This document shows, in pieces, positions 1 through 10,040 of a DNA stretch of 22,280 nucleotides (its first letter is position 1; every line of letters begins with the position of its first letter). A program made the position numbers and the translations under genes. This DNA is from a virus. Under the pieces are notes generated by a model. It was given only the letters and a program-made list of their open reading frames with translations, ran no database searches and was not told where the DNA came from. Where the stretch lies: positions 1 through 22,280 of the IMG/VR virus record IMGVR_UViG_3300034375_002222; one strand, written 5' to 3'.

Positions 1-561
1 ACCACAGTATCTGTATATGAAAACAATCCTACTAAACCTGTTACTTTAGATATATCCCTGGACTTAATTGATAACATGTTGATTGTTAATCCACCACAAG
101 AAGTAGAACAACAGATAGAAGAAACACAATCTAATACAACAGTAGATTACTTAGAGTTTGATGATCTTGATATAGATTATCTTGCTGAAGATTTTTTAGA
201 TGCAGAAGCAGAACTAGAATTTACAGAACTAGATATAAATTATTTAGATGTAAACTTTTTAGAAGACTTGCTTAACGTACTAGATGCACTAGCACTATCT
301 AAAGAAGAAGATGCTCTTAAACAAGGTGGTGTTGGTATTCGTATAGCTGGTACAGAAATAGGACAAGATAAAGACACACAGATAACAACTATAATATCTG
401 GTCAAAACATAAGCTTTACTAGAACAGTCAATCAAAGTGCAAAATTAAATCTTAATGGTTCTGGTAGTTATACAGTAATACTTATACAAGATGGAGTATC
501 TAATACTGTTAAAGTTAATGGCGGTTCTTCAACAACAATAAAAATAACTCAAGGATCGTGA
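1..561 (+). CDS. FecR-like periplasmic protein, 5'-truncated by window edge
   Basis: The reading frame is open from base 1, so 186 residues of a longer protein are visible. An ATG at 76 exists, but it has no good ribosome binding site and the codons before it read as protein, so I treat the gene as partial. The first visible residues (TVSVYENN...KPVTLDISLD) resemble the end of a FecR-type beta-rich domain. Next comes an acidic stretch made of two 21-residue repeats (bases 151-276), then a Gly/Asn/Thr-rich beta-like tail with no membrane segment. FecR-domain proteins often sit beside CHASE2 cyclases in bacterial genomes, and here the stop codon overlaps the GTG start of such a cyclase by four bases, which implies translational coupling. 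The likely location is the periplasm, but the N-terminus is not in the window. The FecR identity is inferred from this short match and the neighbour. Confidence 0.55.
   Translation, partial: TTVSVYENNPTKPVTLDISLDLIDNMLIVNPPQEVEQQIEETQSNTTVDYLEFDDLDIDYLAEDFLDAEAELEFTELDINYLDVNFLEDLLNVLDALALSKEEDALKQGGVGIRIAGTEIGQDKDTQITTIISGQNISFTRTVNQSAKLNLNGSGSYTVILIQDGVSNTVKVNGGSSTTIKITQGS
151..276 (+). repeat. Two-copy 63-bp in-frame acidic repeat
   Basis: Two adjacent 21-residue units begin at base 151 (LEFDDLDIDYLAEDFLD) and base 214 (LEFTELDINYLDVNFLE). The hydrophobic and acidic positions match throughout and the spacing is exactly 63 bases. The DNA copies have drifted, so the repeat is kept at protein level rather than being a fresh duplication. 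It links the putative FecR-like part to the C-terminal beta-like tail. Confidence 0.7.
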
Positions 562-2324
562 AAAAAGTATTATTAGTTTTAGTTATAGTTCTATCACTTC
601 CATTTGTTATGCAAGTTAATATTTTAGAAATATTAAAATTAAAAACATTTGATGCTTTAGTTCCTGAACAAGAACCTTCTGGATATTTTACAATACTTAA
701 TATTACAGAAGATGATATAAGTAAAGAAGGCGGTTATCCATTACCAAGACAAAGGCTTGCAGAGGTGCAATCGCAGTTGATACAAAAGGGAGCTTTAGGT
801 GTTGGCTGGGTAATCGCTTTTCCACAACCTGATAGATTTGGTGGGGATAAAGAGTTTGCAGAATCTTTATCTTATGCTCCTAGTGTTTTGGCAATGTTTG
901 AAAATAACAATCAATCATTTCCTCCTACAACAGGAACAGTAATATTAGGTGATGAACCACAGGGTATATCTGCACAGGGTGTTGTACAGAATATAGATAT
1001 ACTAAAACAAAACGCTAATCAAGGTATAGCAGTAGCTAGAACTGATGTAGATAGTTTAGTAAGACGTTTACCATTACTTTTAAAAACAAATGATGGATGG
1101 GTATCTGCATATGGAACAGAAGTATTAAAAATTTTAGTTGGTGCAGATACATATGTTATTAAATCTAATCCTAATGGAATAGAAGAAATAAGGGTTAGAG
1201 GTTTGCCTCCAGTAAAAACAGATAGTCTTGGTAGAAAGTGGTTAAGTTTTGTAGATACACCACAAACTAATTTACAAGATATGGATGTTGAAGGAAAGTT
1301 TGTATTTGTAGGTTTTACTGCTAAAGGAATAATGCCTCAAATAGCAGTACCAAATAACAAGTTACTTGAGCCTCACAAAATACAAGCTGCTTTAGCAGAG
1401 TCAATCTTAATACAAGATAGTCCATATATACCTGATTATGCACTAGCCTTAGAAATAGTTATATTGATATCGCTGATAATGCTTACCTGGCTATTAATAA
1501 ATATTTTTGGAATTACAACAGGAATTATAACAACCAGTTTTTTATTTTTATCTGTAAGTTTTTTTGGATACTATTTAATACAACAAGGACTTTTAATTGA
1601 CGTTACTTGGGCATTAATATCACAATTTATTACAGGCTCAACAGCATTTTATTTAAGATTTAGGGAACAATATAAACTTAGACAACAAATTAAAGGACAG
1701 TTTGGTAAATACCTTGATCCTAGAATGGTCAAAAAGCTACAAGATAATCCAGAACTTTGTCAGGTAAATGGTAAGCGTGTTGATTGTTCTATTATATTTA
1801 CAGACCTTAGAGGTTTTACTAGCCTATCAGAGTCAGTAGAACCTGAAATGGTAACGTACATAATGAATTCTGTATTAGATGTACAAGTACAAGCAGCTAA
1901 TAAATATTTTGGTTGTACTGATAAGTTTATTGGAGATGCTGGTATGTTTCATTGGAATACAATTATTCCACAAGATAATCATCATAATCTTGCTTTACAG
2001 GCTGCAAAAGAAATAGAAAAGAATATTGACCAGTTAAACATTAAATTTGCAAAAGAAGACATACCTAAAGTTGCTATAGGAATAGGTGTAAATTCAGGAG
2101 TTTGCATAGCTGGTAACTTTGGTGCAACAGATAGGTTTGCTTTTAGTCTTATTGGTGATCCTTGTAATGTAGCTGCTAGATTAGAATCAAGCACTAAGGT
2201 TGCTGGAGTAGGAGTTTTGATAGGCGAAGAAACTGCCAAATATAGTGATTTTAAGCTACAATTATTAGAACCTATAGAAGTTAAAGGTAAAGCTAAACCA
2301 CTACAGGTTTATACATGGGCATAA
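558..2324 (+). CDS. CHASE2-domain class III adenylate cyclase, membrane bound
   Basis: This 588-aa protein should make cAMP from ATP at the inner membrane under control of an extracytoplasmic sensor. Residues 1-20 form an N-terminal membrane anchor. Residues about 25-290 read as CHASE2, including FDALVPEQ near the start, YPLPRQRLAEV, an RTDVDSLVRRLPLL segment and GKFVFVGFTAKG. Three membrane helices follow at about 296-316, 319-340 and 346-367, then a cytoplasmic class III cyclase domain. All key residues are visible: metal-binding D416 (FTDLRGFT) and D460 (KFIGDA), adenine-type K456 and D534 (LIGDPCN), and transition-state N537 and R541 (NVAAR). K and D at the base-selecting positions favour ATP over GTP. 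The GTG start overlaps the upstream stop (GTGA), and the i-spanin gene starts three bases after the stop. The length and order match bacterial CHASE2 cyclases; the unusual point is its place in a phage lysis region. Confidence 0.9.
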   Translation: MKKVLLVLVIVLSLPFVMQVNILEILKLKTFDALVPEQEPSGYFTILNITEDDISKEGGYPLPRQRLAEVQSQLIQKGALGVGWVIAFPQPDRFGGDKEFAESLSYAPSVLAMFENNNQSFPPTTGTVILGDEPQGISAQGVVQNIDILKQNANQGIAVARTDVDSLVRRLPLLLKTNDGWVSAYGTEVLKILVGADTYVIKSNPNGIEEIRVRGLPPVKTDSLGRKWLSFVDTPQTNLQDMDVEGKFVFVGFTAKGIMPQIAVPNNKLLEPHKIQAALAESILIQDSPYIPDYALALEIVILISLIMLTWLLINIFGITTGIITTSFLFLSVSFFGYYLIQQGLLIDVTWALISQFITGSTAFYLRFREQYKLRQQIKGQFGKYLDPRMVKKLQDNPELCQVNGKRVDCSIIFTDLRGFTSLSESVEPEMVTYIMNSVLDVQVQAANKYFGCTDKFIGDAGMFHWNTIIPQDNHHNLALQAAKEIEKNIDQLNIKFAKEDIPKVAIGIGVNSGVCIAGNFGATDRFAFSLIGDPCNVAARLESSTKVAGVGVLIGEETAKYSDFKLQLLEPIEVKGKAKPLQVYTWA

Positions 2325-2327
2325 GAT

Positions 2328-2723
2328 ATGAGTAAAGTTTTAATAGGTATCATTGCAGTTATGACAATAATTGGATATTTTCTTTGGAATGAAAATTCAA
2401 GATTATCTGCTTTAAATCAAGCATTTGAATTAAGAGATCAAGAACAGAAAGCTGCTATTGAATCTTTGCAAAGTGATTTTAAATTGCAAACAGAAGGCTT
2501 ATTAGAAATACAAAGCAAAAATCAATCTATACAGTTAGAAATGTCTAGATACTTAGATATATTTAAAAGACATGATTTAACAAAACTTGCAGCAGCTAAA
2601 CCATCTTTGCTAGAACCAAGGGTAAATAAAGGAACAAAGAATGTATTTGATAGTATTGAAGAAGACAGTCGCAGCATTGATGATCTTGATGATGGTCTAC
2701 AGTTGCAGTCTGTTTCCAAGTAA
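2328..2723 (+). CDS. Inner-membrane spanin subunit (Rz-like)
   Basis: The 131-aa product has a single N-terminal membrane helix (about residues 3-20, KVLIGIIAVMTIIGYFLW) followed by a charged, heptad-like periplasmic stretch at about 23-100 that should form a coiled coil. This is the layout of an i-spanin, which joins an outer-membrane lipoprotein across the periplasm and fuses the two membranes at the last step of lysis. There is no signal cleavage site. The call rests mainly on the next gene: an o-spanin-like lipoprotein starts inside this gene in another frame, the hallmark of Rz/Rz1 pairs. The C-terminus is acidic (SIEEDSRSIDDLDDG), partly because the DNA there also encodes the lipoprotein signal peptide. 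Sequence similarity to known Rz proteins cannot be judged by eye. Confidence 0.7.
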   Translation: MSKVLIGIIAVMTIIGYFLWNENSRLSALNQAFELRDQEQKAAIESLQSDFKLQTEGLLEIQSKNQSIQLEMSRYLDIFKRHDLTKLAAAKPSLLEPRVNKGTKNVFDSIEEDSRSIDDLDDGLQLQSVSK

Positions 2724-3021
2724 ACAAAACGTACAAATAACTACTAAGCCTTTAGAAAGGCAAATAGTACAACCTGTTATGCCAAGGCAGATTGATTTAA
2801 AAGAGCCATATTGGTATGTAGTTTCTGATAAAAATGTAGATGAGTTTCTATCAAGAGTAGAAAAGGAACATGGACAAATAGTTTTTTTTGCTATGTCTGT
2901 ACCTGATTATGAAATCATGTCATACAATATGCAGGAGTTAAAAAGATATATAAATGAACTTAAACAAGTTGTTGTCTATTATAAAAAGGTTACTACAAAT
3001 AAACCTGATACAGGGGAGTAA
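2641..3021 (+). CDS. Outer-membrane spanin lipoprotein (Rz1-like)
   Basis: This 126-aa protein has a clear lipoprotein signal peptide. Lysines 7-8 are followed by the hydrophobic run VAALMILMMVYS and the lipobox cysteine C22, so the mature protein should be lipidated and held in the outer membrane. The mature part starts with a Pro/Gln/Lys-rich segment (residues 23-50) and ends with a mixed helical region. The ATG at 2641 is preceded by AAAGGA at a suitable distance. The first 83 bases overlap the end of the i-spanin gene in the +1 frame. At 126 aa it is longer than the classic lambda Rz1 (60 aa) and not especially proline rich, so an unrelated lipoprotein is possible. The overlap and the lysozyme gene one base downstream support the spanin call. 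Confidence 0.7.
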   Translation: MYLIVLKKTVAALMILMMVYSCSLFPSKQNVQITTKPLERQIVQPVMPRQIDLKEPYWYVVSDKNVDEFLSRVEKEHGQIVFFAMSVPDYEIMSYNMQELKRYINELKQVVVYYKKVTTNKPDTGE

Positions 3022-3022
3022 T

Positions 3023-3466
3023 ATGAATATATCACAAGAAGGAATAGCTTTAATAAAGAAGTTTGAAGGTTGTGAACTAGAAGCATATAGAGACTCAGTA
3101 AATGTTTTGACAATTGGCTACGGGCATACAAAAAATGTTAAGGAAGGCGATAAGATAAACCAAGACGAAGCAGAACATCTATTACAAGAAGAAATGCCTG
3201 AATATGAAGGCTATATCAATGATATGGTTAAAGTGCCCTTAAAACAGAACCAATTCGATGCTTTAGTTTGTTGGGTTTATAACTTAGGACCAACTAATCT
3301 TGGTGAGTCAACATTACTAAAATTACTTAACGCAGGTGATTATCATACAACACCATCACAAATTAAAAGATGGAACAAAGCTGGAGGAGAAACATTGCAA
3401 GGATTAATTAGACGAAGAGAAGCGGAAGCATTGCTTTTTGAAGGCAAGGAATGGATTGAGGTCTAG
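3023..3466 (+). CDS. Endolysin, T4-type lysozyme (GH24)
   Basis: The 147-aa protein is a peptidoglycan-cleaving muramidase of the GH24 family. The N-terminal signature is complete: KKFEGCELEAYRDS followed by LTIGYGHT, giving the expected E15, D24 and T30 catalytic residues. A later NQFDALVCWVYNLG segment and the C-terminal RRREAEALLFE are also typical. The frame is open back to 2954, but the ATG at 3023 has a strong GGGGAG ribosome binding site and gives the usual GH24 N-terminus. It starts one base after the o-spanin stop. There is no signal peptide or signal-anchor, so release to the periplasm should need a holin, and none is recognisable in the window. The next virion gene starts one base after the stop. 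Confidence 0.93.
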   Translation: MNISQEGIALIKKFEGCELEAYRDSVNVLTIGYGHTKNVKEGDKINQDEAEHLLQEEMPEYEGYINDMVKVPLKQNQFDALVCWVYNLGPTNLGESTLLKLLNAGDYHTTPSQIKRWNKAGGETLQGLIRRREAEALLFEGKEWIEV

Positions 3467-3467
3467 A

Positions 3468-5333
3468 ATGCCATTAGCAAAATTTGTTTTTAAACCAGGA
3501 ATAAATAAAGAAGGAACTAACTACTCTAATGAGGGTGGTTGGTTTGACTCTGATAAAGTAAGATTTCGCAAAGGGCGACCAGAAAAGATAGCAGGATGGG
3601 AAAAAAATACTTTAAATAATTTTCAAGGCACTTGTAGAAGCTTGCATTCTTATAGAGACCAAGGACAAACAGATTATGTTGGAGTAGGTACACATTTAAA
3701 ATATTATCTTAAACAGGGTAATAATTTTAATGATATAACTCCTATAAGAAAAACAAGCACAAATTCAATAACTTTTGCAGCAACAAATGGTTCTTCTACT
3801 ATAACTGTAACTGATTCAAGTCATGGTGCAGAAACAGGAGATTTTGTTACATTTGCACAAGCAGTAAGTTTAGGTGGATTAATAACAGCAGATGTTTTAA
3901 ATCAAGAATATGAAATATTAAAAACTTTAACTACTAATACATACACTATAACAGCTAAAGATACAGACGGAAATACAGTTACAGCAAACTCAGATGATAT
4001 CAATAATGGTGGTTCAGCAGTAGATGGTTCTTATCAAATAAGTATAGGTTTAGATGTTTTTGTTAAAGGAACAGGTTGGGGTGCAGGTACTTGGGGTGCA
4101 GGCACATTTGGTTCAGTAAGTCCTATATCAGCTTCTAGTCAGTTAAGATTATGGTCACAAGATAATTTTGGAGATGATCTTATATCTTGTATTAGGGGTG
4201 GTGGCATATTTCTTTGGGATGAAAGTGCAGGTGCTACACAAAGAGCGGTAGCTTTTTCAGATTTATCAGGTGCAAGCAATCCACCTATTATTGCTTTACA
4301 AATAATGATGTCAGACGTAGACAAACATATTATTTGTTTCGGAGCTAATACTATAGGTGCATCAACAGCAGACCCTTTGTTAGTAAGGTGGTCAGATAAA
4401 GAAAGTTCTATTGATTGGACACCTACATCAACTAATCAAGCAGGTGGTGTACAGCTATCACAAGGCTCTACAATTATTGGTGCATTACGCACGAGACAAG
4501 AAATACTTATATGGACTGATGTAGGTATAGTATCTATGCGTTTTGTAGGTGAACCATTTATATTTTCTTTTTCAGAAGTAGCACAAGGTCCTTCACTTAT
4601 AGCACCTAATGCAGCAGTTAATGCCAATAACAGAGTTTATTTTATGGATAGGGGTGGATTTTATTCTTACTCAGGAAATGCACAAAGACTGGCTTGTACT
4701 GTATTAGATCATATATATTCAGATATAAATCTAGGTCAACAATTTAAAATATTTGGAACATCAAATGAAAACAATAATGAAGTCATTTGGTTTTATCCTT
4801 CAGCTAATAGTTTAGAAATAGATAAATATGTTATTTATAATTATTTAGAAAATACATGGTCTATAGGAACTACATCTGATGGCTTTACAAGAACTGCATG
4901 GATAGAAGCACCTTCATTAGATTTTCCATTAGCTGCTGCTAAAACAACAGGCACTAATACTAACTATCTCTACAATCAAGAAGTAGGACATAGTAATGAT
5001 GGTGAAGCATTTACTGCTTACATAGAGTCTAGTGATTTTGATTTAGCTCCAGACGGAGAAAGATTTACATTTATATCTAAATTAATACCTGATATTGAAT
5101 TTAGGGATCAACAATCAACAAGTGATAGTGTTACTTTTACTATTAAAGGTAGAGATTATCCTTTACAAGATTTATCTACTTTACAAACTATAAACGTAAC
5201 ACCAGCCTCTACATTTGAAAATACAAGAGCTAGAACTAGACAAGCAGCTATGCGTATATCTAATTCATCTAGTGATTATGGATGGAGATTAGGAGATTTA
5301 AGATTAGAAATTAGACCAGACGGAAAAAGATAA
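3468..5333 (+). CDS. Virion stabilisation/tail protein, P22 gp10-like
   Basis: The 621-aa product opens with LAKFVFKPGINKEGTNYSNE and GGWFDSDKVRFRKGRPEKI, a start I recognise from many uncultured marine phage structural proteins. The rest is beta-rich with repeated short strands and aromatic/Gly turns (for example WSQDNFGDDLISCIRGGG, VIWFYPSANS, YNYLENTWSIGT). That fits a propeller-like head-tail connector plug of the P22 gp10 (packaged DNA stabilisation) type. The frame extends to 3438, but the ATG at 3468 has GAGG upstream and gives the family N-terminus. Threonine-rich strands at about residues 100-185 look like an inserted immunoglobulin-like or tail-spike-type module. It lies directly after the lysis genes and overlaps the next gene by one base (TAATG). 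The virion role is well supported; the exact position in the particle is inferred. Confidence 0.7.
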   Translation: MPLAKFVFKPGINKEGTNYSNEGGWFDSDKVRFRKGRPEKIAGWEKNTLNNFQGTCRSLHSYRDQGQTDYVGVGTHLKYYLKQGNNFNDITPIRKTSTNSITFAATNGSSTITVTDSSHGAETGDFVTFAQAVSLGGLITADVLNQEYEILKTLTTNTYTITAKDTDGNTVTANSDDINNGGSAVDGSYQISIGLDVFVKGTGWGAGTWGAGTFGSVSPISASSQLRLWSQDNFGDDLISCIRGGGIFLWDESAGATQRAVAFSDLSGASNPPIIALQIMMSDVDKHIICFGANTIGASTADPLLVRWSDKESSIDWTPTSTNQAGGVQLSQGSTIIGALRTRQEILIWTDVGIVSMRFVGEPFIFSFSEVAQGPSLIAPNAAVNANNRVYFMDRGGFYSYSGNAQRLACTVLDHIYSDINLGQQFKIFGTSNENNNEVIWFYPSANSLEIDKYVIYNYLENTWSIGTTSDGFTRTAWIEAPSLDFPLAAAKTTGTNTNYLYNQEVGHSNDGEAFTAYIESSDFDLAPDGERFTFISKLIPDIEFRDQQSTSDSVTFTIKGRDYPLQDLSTLQTINVTPASTFENTRARTRQAAMRISNSSSDYGWRLGDLRLEIRPDGKR

Positions 5334-8800: not shown

Positions 8801-9109
8801 ATGCAACTTAGAGAAGCTGTGTTGCAATCTGTAGTACCAGGAGCACAAACACAAGGACAAATAAAAGGTAATGGTGAAGGAGGAATGGATGACGATCTAA
8901 GAGGTATGATAGGCGATAAAGAAAGAATAGCTGTATCACAAGATGAGTTTATTGTTCCTGCTGATGTAGTATCAATGTTAGGAGATGGCAGTTCAGATGC
9001 TGGTTCTAAAGAACTTTATGACATGATGGATAGAGTTAGACAAGAAAAAACTGGTACTACAAAACAAGCACCAAGATTAGCTAATGCTGGAGGAATGTTG
9101 CCAGCATGA
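5867..9109 (+). CDS. Large virion protein with N-terminal LysM domain, putative ejection protein
   Basis: This 1080-aa protein begins with a full LysM peptidoglycan-binding domain (residues 1-47: YKIKSGDTLSQIAKDNNISV ... IFAGKTLDIP). A Lys/Thr/Pro linker follows to about 100, then a globular part (about 105-290) ending in a YDFKP...GYYGP region. A Gly/Ala-rich hydrophobic stretch at about 330-405 could insert in a membrane. An Asp/Asn/Leu low-complexity segment spans about 738-905. The C-terminal block at about 1005-1060 (DKERIAVSQDEFIVPADVV, MLGDGSSDAG) is one I recognise in marine phage virion proteins. A glycine motif, AEGGRTGYFMGG, lies at 579-590. The gene starts in a TAATG overlap after AGAGGAAAGG and ends in an ATGA overlap. 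An internal virion protein that contacts the cell wall during DNA entry is the best guess. Confidence 0.65.
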   Translation: MKYKIKSGDTLSQIAKDNNISVKKLAELNNIKDVNKIFAGKTLDIPSREKPKTKKSSSVEKVNQSDPFFIQEESGAFKSTRPKSTTPKPTTVVTPAVQEKKTIEKESFLPINIRQIFNPGQNRTEKDLSKEERDVLKKVIARSQTPERIAEKEESGLNPYAIEYKDYESTQEGAQYADVGGDMGLLGLLNKLQNPAYNLKTFLGQASAIPQEDGGYRIQDVYDFKPKTRRQGLGKFEDYLSSVGEAGFNPYSQVRNFMGYYGPQEGTGEGGRSDIRIMQQGGDTMDIQQQTKNVAAQGRYGDSMLLHVNPAEVKGLASAMPITVNPQTGQPEAFLPFLAPIFGSMLGGSLLAGSTLGGLATAGLSKAAAAGIGAGLAQTAVTGDIKEGLKAGLTAGMGARIFGGGAEASKFAEGAQGATDAATKINTNVLLQDPTLAQAGQASSTLVGPVPPVLNQAGQMQLSNMMPDASEFIAQGGKDAVATYSGNIAGPGAATFGEDFTTMFGKGDNFNLGQGLSNIGSAAMNDPLALATLGTTGTMYGMDMMQADYEEQMARMQAEREEKKRQNELMNPEPILYSAEGGRTGYFMGGDMRAAIDSVGGQNITGGELPQIFAPARQAYDVNPNFMAGFNPETMYFNPSTISAPASGLEAGGPPIVLDTYTGTKGGYGGDPLVISPEGRQASIDPFSAYTGEAPAGLVPYSTTQPAPYIDITGEDLGITDGTEGVYDPTVDGITKEEPIIDESFDPNNYTIPDNIQDLIDSLDLSNINFMGSNIDLTGFNPLDYTVDPKFEVNDPTNMDDLINLDNNLMTDSLDTNINNNLNDTFDIDALSNLDNINAGIDSFTTTDNTLNNTLDLSAFDPYNQLDTTTNLGVTDTLSANTLAGFNPLNTFGLTEDQLNRSKMDSLTMAEGGQLPNKGLEALNKVAPDVVDKMGYQEGGMTMMNDPLTQEVTAFLLGESNNEEALNMFLTKYGNEAFMQLREAVLQSVVPGAQTQGQIKGNGEGGMDDDLRGMIGDKERIAVSQDEFIVPADVVSMLGDGSSDAGSKELYDMMDRVRQEKTGTTKQAPRLANAGGMLPA
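8080..8580 (+). repeat. Asp/Asn/Leu low-complexity segment
   Basis: About 165 codons inside the 1080-aa virion gene encode mostly Asp, Asn, Leu, Thr and Ile, with irregular NLN/LDN/DLSN-type units (for example DSLDTNINNNLNDTFDID). The GFNPL motif recurs at both ends (near 8206 and 8517). The frame stays open. This is a protein-level low-complexity linker rather than a DNA tandem repeat. Confidence 0.55.
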
Positions 9110-9585
9110 ATGAACCAGCAAAAAAATTAGAAAATAATATAGAAATATCTGCTGTATTACCCTCAGATATTTATTTAGTTTGGAAGTATGTTGATAAATT
9201 TTTAGAGCGTGCTTGTAAAAGATCAAACGGAAGACATACTATTGATACTATTTATAAACAATTAATAGATAGTCATGCAAATTTATGGGTGGTTTATAAT
9301 ACAAATGAAGACATTGTTAAAGGATGTGTTGTAACAAATTTTGTTTTATATCCAACTGGATTAAAAATGTTAAATATATTGCAATTATCTGGTAAAAATA
9401 TGGAAGACTGGATGGAAATAGGTAAACCAATTTTATTAGATTGGGCAGTAAGAAATAATTGTCATGGTATAGAAGCTGTAGGAAGAGAAGGAATGGGTAA
9501 TTGGCTTACAGATAAAGATACAAAATGGAAAAAAAATAATTTACTTTTTGAAATGCAATTTGATCAACAGGAAAAAACCAAATGA
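9106..9585 (+). CDS. GNAT-fold-like virion-operon protein (first of two)
   Basis: The 159-aa protein has the strand and helix order of a divergent GNAT-type fold seen in tailed-phage structural operons. An N-terminal helix (VWKYVDKFLERACKRSNGR) is followed by LWVVYN, VKGCVVTNFVLYP, MLNILQLSG, a helix carrying WAVRNNCHGIEAVGREGMGNWL, and a final strand. I see no classic acetyl-CoA loop ([QR]xxGx[GA]), so acetyltransferase activity is doubtful. Related proteins in T7-like and marine podoviruses lie beside the internal virion proteins. Both ends overlap neighbours by four bases (ATGA), so it is made in step with the flanking virion genes. A virion-assembly or host-modifying role is inferred. Confidence 0.55.
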   Translation: MNEPAKKLENNIEISAVLPSDIYLVWKYVDKFLERACKRSNGRHTIDTIYKQLIDSHANLWVVYNTNEDIVKGCVVTNFVLYPTGLKMLNILQLSGKNMEDWMEIGKPILLDWAVRNNCHGIEAVGREGMGNWLTDKDTKWKKNNLLFEMQFDQQEKTK

Positions 9586-10040
9586 TTATTAGAGCTTACG
9601 AAAATAAAGACCTTGATCAGTGTGAGGCAATTGCAAGAGGTTTTCAAGAAAGCAGTCTATTTAATGTATCAGGCTGGGATAAAGAAAAATTTAATTATCT
9701 TGCAAGCCAAGCAGCTATACCAGGATCAGATGTTTTTGCTTGGGTAGCGGATTTAGATGGCATAATTATCGGTGCTTTTGTAGGATACATAACTGAGTAT
9801 TATTTTTCAAAAGAAAAATTAGCAGAAGATTTAATAGTTATATTTTTACCAGAGTATAGAAAGCATGCCTATGAAGGAATAGAAAAAATGTTATCGGAAT
9901 TTGAAGACTGGGCAAAAGTAAAAAATGCAGTGGAGCTTTGTATTGGTGCTAGCACAGGTTTAAAGACAGACAATTATAAAGATTTTTTGATTAAGAATGG
10001 TTATCAAGATGTGGGTTTTTTAACTAAAAAGAGGATTTAA
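9582..10040 (+). CDS. GNAT acetyltransferase-like protein (second of two), CoA loop degenerate
   Basis: The 152-aa protein follows the GNAT plan. It starts IIRAYENKDLDQCEAIARG, has a central FAWVADLDGIIIGAFVGYI strand pair, then the core strand and helix LIVIFLPEYRKHAYEGIEKM (about 84-103), a helix ending WAKVKNAVELCIGASTG and a C-terminal NGYQDVGFL. In active GNATs the loop after this core strand reads [QR]xxGx[GA]. Here R93 is followed by KHAYEG, so the pyrophosphate-binding glycine is displaced or missing. The enzyme may be inactive, or it may bind CoA in another way. The ATG overlaps the previous stop (ATGA), and the next virion gene starts two bases after its stop. Confidence 0.7.
   Translation: MIIRAYENKDLDQCEAIARGFQESSLFNVSGWDKEKFNYLASQAAIPGSDVFAWVADLDGIIIGAFVGYITEYYFSKEKLAEDLIVIFLPEYRKHAYEGIEKMLSEFEDWAKVKNAVELCIGASTGLKTDNYKDFLIKNGYQDVGFLTKKRI

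Follow-up and report, generated by a model that had tools for sequence, protein, structure and literature searches.

A FecR-domain gene and a CHASE2 adenylate cyclase gene beside phage lysis genes, almost certainly the tail of a phage curli cassette

Why should the gene for a membrane-bound, sensor-equipped adenylate cyclase lie between a FecR-like gene and the lysis genes of a phage? The question is raised by one end of a linear virus record of 22,280 bases, the whole of which was analysed and is called the window here (all of its features given below lie on the plus strand). The window opens inside a gene encoding the C-terminal 186 residues of a FecR-domain protein (1-561; phrog_37870, E 2.7e-19), followed by a complete CHASE2 adenylate cyclase gene with a GTG start (558-2324; Pfam CHASE2 and Guanylate_cyc; phrog_35576, E 3.3e-109). 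The cyclase start overlaps the FecR stop in a GTGA at 558-561, and the cyclase stop ends at 2324, leaving a gap of three bases before an Rz-like inner-membrane spanin gene (2328-2723; phrog_739, E 6.1e-12). Nested in the latter, and extending past its end, is an Rz1-like outer-membrane spanin gene (2641-3021; phrog_812, E 2.3e-12), and a phage lysozyme (endolysin) gene (3023-3466; PF00959, E 3.8e-49) and virion genes follow. The initial annotation, made from the letters of the window, had this layout right, both in the complete cyclase placed three bases before a spanin gene and in its GTGA coupling to the FecR-like gene. One virion structural protein (3468-5333; phrog_3287, E 1.9e-72), which served as the anchor for comparing this region across related phages, shares 32-40% identity with those of HTVC023P, HTVC027P and DSL-LC04; the podophage of the window is distant from its named relatives. 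Amid the virion genes, at 9106-10040, stand two successive small genes that look acetyltransferase-like by eye and gave no significant match in Pfam.

The initial annotation took the FecR-CHASE2 pair for a stand-alone signalling unit set in a lysis operon, but the pair proved to be the end of a curli (type VIII secretion) module. A scan of IMG/VR with the cyclase returned 267 relatives, and the nearest 80 were fetched. In all 26 of the cyclase loci that extend 4 kb or more upstream, csgF, csgG, curlin and FecR lie 5' of the cyclase, a count of non-independent events, as the fetched loci are nearest relatives and some come from overlapping contigs. The order is small membrane protein(s)-csgF-csgG-curlin-FecR-(curlin)-cyclase, the second curlin being optional. 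In locus L003, whose cyclase is 99% identical to that of the window, csgF, csgG and curlin are present; in the window they fall beyond the contig edge. We are almost certain that the two genes of the window are the tail of a phage curli cassette whose earlier genes lie past that edge. The module can also be followed from csgG, of which IMG/VR holds at least 595 relatives: curlin and FecR occur in all 54 csgG-anchored loci that reach 2.5 kb or more downstream, and a recognisable csgF in 56 of the 59 that reach 1.2 kb or more upstream. The cyclase is present in 38 of the 42 csgG loci with enough sequence past FecR and absent from L179, L196, L197 and L225; because it is missing from these four of 42 modules, it is dispensable to the module.

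The core of this finding is already known: the cassette is real, conserved and published, and only its last two genes are seen in the window. Wittmers et al. (2022; PMC9599517) reported the module, including FecR and cyclase, in HTVC023P-type podophages and pelagimyophages, and its csgF and csgG were described by Zaragoza-Solas et al. (2020; PMC7029224) and, in Melnitz, by Buchholz et al. (2022; PMC9004378). HTVC008M and Melnitz carry the same gene set. The relatives of the window share the gene content and order of the pelagiphage module, including the short membrane protein genes that precede csgF, whereas the window itself holds the last two genes only. A doubt raised at the outset, that no other phage might carry the pair, is thus dispelled both by the 267 IMG/VR relatives and by the publication of 2022.

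In one respect our loci depart from the published description. In the account of Wittmers et al. (PMC9599517), csgF is preceded by short histidine kinases, one or two in number. In each of the 59 csgG loci that extend 1.2 kb or more upstream, we find one or two short proteins with a transmembrane segment and a coiled coil before csgG. Those that precede csgF are about 84-116 amino acids long, with one membrane segment plus a coiled coil, belong to phrog_18771 (for example, L009:3079-3429 and L049:5674-6218) and give weak holin-like matches. Neither a HisKA nor a HATPase domain was found in the scanned examples, so the genes in the 'histidine kinase' slot differ here from the published module in having no kinase domain. 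The published label is probably a misannotation of a small coiled-coil membrane protein of the same module.

The cyclase is a single open frame with Pfam matches to CHASE2 over residues 10-306 (E 1.5e-24) and to Guanylate_cyc over residues 409-581 (E 4.6e-15). Its sensor region (585-1475; PF05226) is predicted to be periplasmic except for the flanking membrane segments, and hydrophobic stretches span residues 1-28 and 289-341. The catalytic domain (1782-2300; PF00211) is class IIIb-like, judged by residue conservation and by alignment to its best solved relative, the class IIIb cyclase CyaB of Pseudomonas aeruginosa (PDB 3r5g; E 5.8e-24). The initial annotation had listed D416, K456, D460, D534, N537 and R541 as intact. 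Among 106 distinct phage cyclases, D416, K456, D460 and R541 are invariant and N537 is conserved in 105, but D534 does not belong in a catalytic list, being present in 99 of 106 and aligning to an R in CyaB. The base-selecting position S530 is S in 84 of the 106, T in 21 and D in one; CyaB, with a T, resembles the phage enzymes, which have S or T there. All the class IIIb features are found, namely the metal aspartates D416/D460, K456 with S530, the transition-state N537 and R541, and the K456/S530 pair reads as the pattern of a class IIIb adenylate cyclase. Unlike CyaB, the phage catalytic domain is fused to a CHASE2 sensor and sits within a phage module. The Melnitz cyclase (L082:9923-11974) is the sole one of the 106 with S at N537 and has D at position 530, and its activity may differ.

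Comparing the window with those relatives that show enough synonymous change, we obtained dN/dS values that for the catalytic domain mostly fall at about 0.03-0.08, with 0.12 against L008, and that for the CHASE2 part are about 0.16-0.22; the cyclase is under purifying selection. The conserved catalytic residues and the low dN/dS support an active enzyme, and the protein is very probably a functional adenylate cyclase. In a tree, the phage cyclases (17 rows, with those of pelagimyophages among them) form one clade against 32 bacterial rows, with support of 100/99, which answers the comparison with bacterial CHASE2 cyclases proposed in the initial annotation. The annotation also held that the base composition resembled that of the virion genes and did not suggest a recent insertion; the codon use of the cyclase agrees, and the pair has long been resident in phage. 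A recent host gene is ruled out by the phage clade, the phage neighbours and the phage codon use.

That the first gene is FecR-like, as first annotated, holds true by way of its full-length homologue. Pfam found no match in the 186 residues present in the window, the FecR domain itself lying in the missing N-terminal half, beyond the contig edge. L003 has 98.7% identical DNA over the shared stretch and encodes the whole protein (L003:2276-3388), with a PF04773 match (E 3.5e-13). It is 370 amino acids long, with an N-terminal hydrophobic helix and the FecR domain at residues 60-151. In the AlphaFold model the FecR domain is visible; an acidic linker modelled at low confidence comes next, and the chain closes with a short beta segment, the C-terminus being uncertain. 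That end (466-558 in the window, SYTVILIQDGVSNTVKVNGGSSTTIKITQGS) may be curlin-like. The pattern [VILF]x[VILF]xQx0-3 ends all 92 distinct phage FecR C-termini, which are related sequences, as against 1 of 381 other ORFs, and it recurs in the FecR proteins of HTVC008M and Melnitz at about 35% identity. The strict pattern also ends 17 of 98 curlins, while others carry a short tail beyond it, and a one-against-one profile comparison of the FecR end with curlin C-termini gave a probability of 86%; Pfam Curlin_rpt did not match the FecR C-terminus. On this likeness, which consists of a short motif and one profile comparison, the FecR C-terminus can be read as a curlin-repeat-like end, a feature new to the published picture.

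Relatives of these domains in bacteria suggest what such a protein might do. Phage-like FecR domains occur in 117 of 385 alphaproteobacterial genomes, the best of them mostly N-terminal in large proteins, and the five proteins examined first have Calx-beta, VWA, LapA-like, cadherin or RTX matches. Since it is on large adhesins that the nearest relatives of the phage FecR domain in alphaproteobacteria are found, 'iron regulator' describes the phage protein poorly and a surface-linked role fits better. A cyclase-profile match was found in five of 20 fetched alphaproteobacterial FecR regions, as CHASE2 with a cyclase (L162), CHASE2 with SpoIIE (L152), CHASE2 with PAS and HD (L156) and GAF-PAS cyclases (L149, L154), and by hand count FecR and cyclase matches lie within 4 kb of each other on 21 contigs. 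In L152 (3969-9984; genome G303, of a probe-marked family, see below), the CHASE2-SpoIIE protein, with a phosphatase output, is near an 898 amino acid FecR-domain protein. The pairing of FecR with CHASE2, on which the initial annotation drew, is a genuine bacterial association, known from a Burkholderia biofilm operon (PMC5192318) and a Campylobacterota cAMP cluster (PMC9239204). In bacteria as in phages, the exported FecR protein is encoded close to a membrane-bound CHASE2 protein, and some of the bacterial pairs also share the cyclase output. Bacterial FecR domains, in contrast, are joined to LysM or large adhesin repeats, whereas the strand at the end of the phage FecR may be curlin-like and its gene goes together with csgG, a linkage absent in the five bacterial curli loci checked. 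Alphaproteobacterial curli operons share CsgF, CsgG and curlin-repeat proteins with the phage module, and the five loci have no FecR or cyclase within about 9 kb. These five loci thus yielded no bacterial donor that combines curli, FecR and cyclase, and a scan of genome contigs returned only a Maricaulis-labelled phage contig and a Rickettsiales locus without curli. The contig L084 (NZMJ01000081.1), binned as Maricaulis sp., is over its whole length a phage fragment with a curli module.

If the cyclase makes cAMP, something should read it. A phage-encoded cAMP receptor with a PF00027 domain was looked for in seven phage records, namely HTVC008M, Melnitz and five from IMG/VR that are possibly fragments, and none of them has one. 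On the host side, genomes G213 and G303 were marked by what we take to be a SAR11 16S probe sequence. Among 60 genomes of the family of G213, many of them possibly incomplete, PF00027 occurs in two, and PF00211 and csgG in two each; the latter both turn up in one and the same pair of genomes, on contigs bearing the phage module. The contigs L334 (G398:C1) and L335 (G434:C11), in the probe-marked family, carry the curli module, with clear phage genes in L334, and may be infecting phages or binning errors. If the family of G213 is the host, it has no class III cyclase of its own, and 58 of the 60 genomes are without a CRP-type receptor.

The position beside lysis genes is less general than the module itself. 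The gene 3' of the cyclase in 78 loci is Rz in 52, a three-TM holin-like gene in 19, a convergent ribonucleotide reductase in six and another gene in one, so lysis genes are there in 71 loci and absent in seven. Nor is the module beside lysis genes in HTVC008M and Melnitz, where the nearest later genes are small unknown genes and tail genes. Lysis neighbours are thus not constant, a point that the initial annotation had proposed to check. Six contigs (L055, L061, L063, L064, L065 and L067) have the convergent ribonucleotide reductase and other replication-type genes 3' of the cyclase, so the curli module also occurs in another genome context. The lysis adjacency reflects the insertion slot of one podophage group. 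Compared from the structural gene at 3468, the slot before the lysis genes is occupied by curli-module genes in 30 loci and by another cassette in 12; no locus has both or neither, a further 32 being too short to tell. The alternative cassette of these sister phages (L277:3439-7863; also L305, L307, L311, L292, L294, L303 and L315) encodes a small coiled-coil membrane protein and two proteins whose N-termini resemble signal sequences, one of them rich in Asn/Thr and the other acidic and 750-790 amino acids long. The acidic protein matched no Pfam or PHROGs family and no named phage, and the AlphaFold model of this large secreted protein has a mean pLDDT of 33. Within this one phage group, the slot seems to act as a swap site for cassettes whose products are exported.

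These observations bear on several explanations of why the cyclase is where it is. The initial annotation had proposed that it may time lysis or interfere with defence, and we found no evidence that the enzyme itself does either. In a broader form, the module as a whole, with its CsgG pore, small membrane proteins and envelope-sensing cyclase, would time or trigger lysis, hence its position in the lysis region. An Rz or holin-like gene does follow the cyclase in most loci, the small proteins before csgF have their weak holin matches, and Buchholz et al. (PMC9004378) suggested a pinholin-like or secretin-like CsgG in Melnitz. Yet seven of the 78 loci, as well as HTVC008M and Melnitz, have the module apart from lysis genes; a different secreted cassette is found there in sister phages whose lysis genes are the same; and complete Rz/Rz1/lysozyme sets persist without the module, so that we consider a lysis role unlikely. 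We are more sceptical still of the regulation that Wittmers et al. (PMC9599517) argued for from what the genes are called and from the part that cAMP plays in controlling curli in E. coli, in which FecR senses iron and cAMP from the cyclase switches on curli gene transcription. Neither a FecI-type sigma factor nor a TonB-dependent receptor, the partners by which the iron system is defined, adjoins FecR in the annotation of HTVC008M or Melnitz; in the IMG/VR loci the genes around FecR are those for csg proteins, cyclase and lysis, again with no FecI or FecA partner among them. In addition, the nearest bacterial FecR domains are in large surface proteins, and PF00027 occurs in only two of the 60 genomes of the presumed host family and in none of the phage records checked.

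A role in counter-defence, the cyclic nucleotide disturbing host cyclic-nucleotide immunity such as Pycsar, seems to us highly improbable. The domain does match Pycsar cyclase models (PDLC00734, E 1.2e-26), as class III cyclases generally may, and no receptor is known for the cyclic nucleotide. However, the base-selecting residues follow the pattern of adenylate cyclases, whereas Pycsar has a uridylate or cytidylate cyclase; the cyclase comes with FecR and curli genes wherever the sequence permits a view; no Pycsar effector was recognised adjoining it, its neighbours being curli and lysis genes; and a decoy would need neither a CHASE2 sensor nor a FecR partner. We give virtually no credence to an assembly chimera, or to a stand-alone bacterial FecR-cyclase pair newly inserted in a phage. 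The window does start within the FecR gene, which makes the upstream side unreadable there, but the same junctions recur across many independent contigs, the codon use is of phage type and the phage cyclases stand in one clade apart from the 32 bacterial ones. In particular, L002-L006, at 96-99% protein identity, share the junction, which excludes the chimera of different molecules that the initial annotation had named as a concern.

The reading that we prefer is that the cassette serves the cell surface. The exported FecR protein, with its curlin-like end, would probably join the fibre or the export machinery and would report the state of fibre or export to the periplasmic CHASE2 sensor, which would set cAMP synthesis by the class IIIb cyclase; the whole cassette would remodel the surface of the infected cell late in infection, for adhesion, aggregation or the exclusion of other phages. 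This model draws support from the linkage of the module, the catalytic residues, dN/dS, the curlin-like FecR ends, the adhesin-borne FecR domains, the swap in the slot and the single clade of phage cyclases. Against it count the dispensable cyclase, the few CRP-type receptors, the shortness of the curlin motif and the behaviour of infected OM43 cells, which Buchholz et al. (PMC9004378) saw without clumping. Taken whole, from cassette through FecR/CHASE2 fibre sensing and cAMP to surface remodelling, it is our best explanation, and we hold the chances for and against it to be evenly balanced. The sensing route from FecR through CHASE2 to cAMP, taken separately, is the best model available but somewhat doubtful. 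Bacterial FecR and CHASE2-cyclase matches are often close together and CHASE2 outputs vary, which also speaks for the whole explanation. The contact between FecR and CHASE2, the fibre sensing and the surface function are what we infer from these patterns. A bolder version, which we regard as rather unlikely, is that the phage equips a host that has neither cyclase nor known receptor with a full surface-sensing circuit: FecR would be a curlin-capped fibre part, CHASE2 would read the assembly of the fibre, an unrecognised host or phage receptor would respond, and the slot would be a swap site for late surface-export cassettes.

Phages with curli are common in marine viral data. Our results raise the sharp question of what reads cAMP in hosts that seemingly have no CRP-type proteins, and they weaken two published labels, that of iron regulator and that of histidine kinase. 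What they add to the published module is that its FecR protein may be tied to curlin through its C-terminus, and that another secreted cassette can replace the module in its slot.
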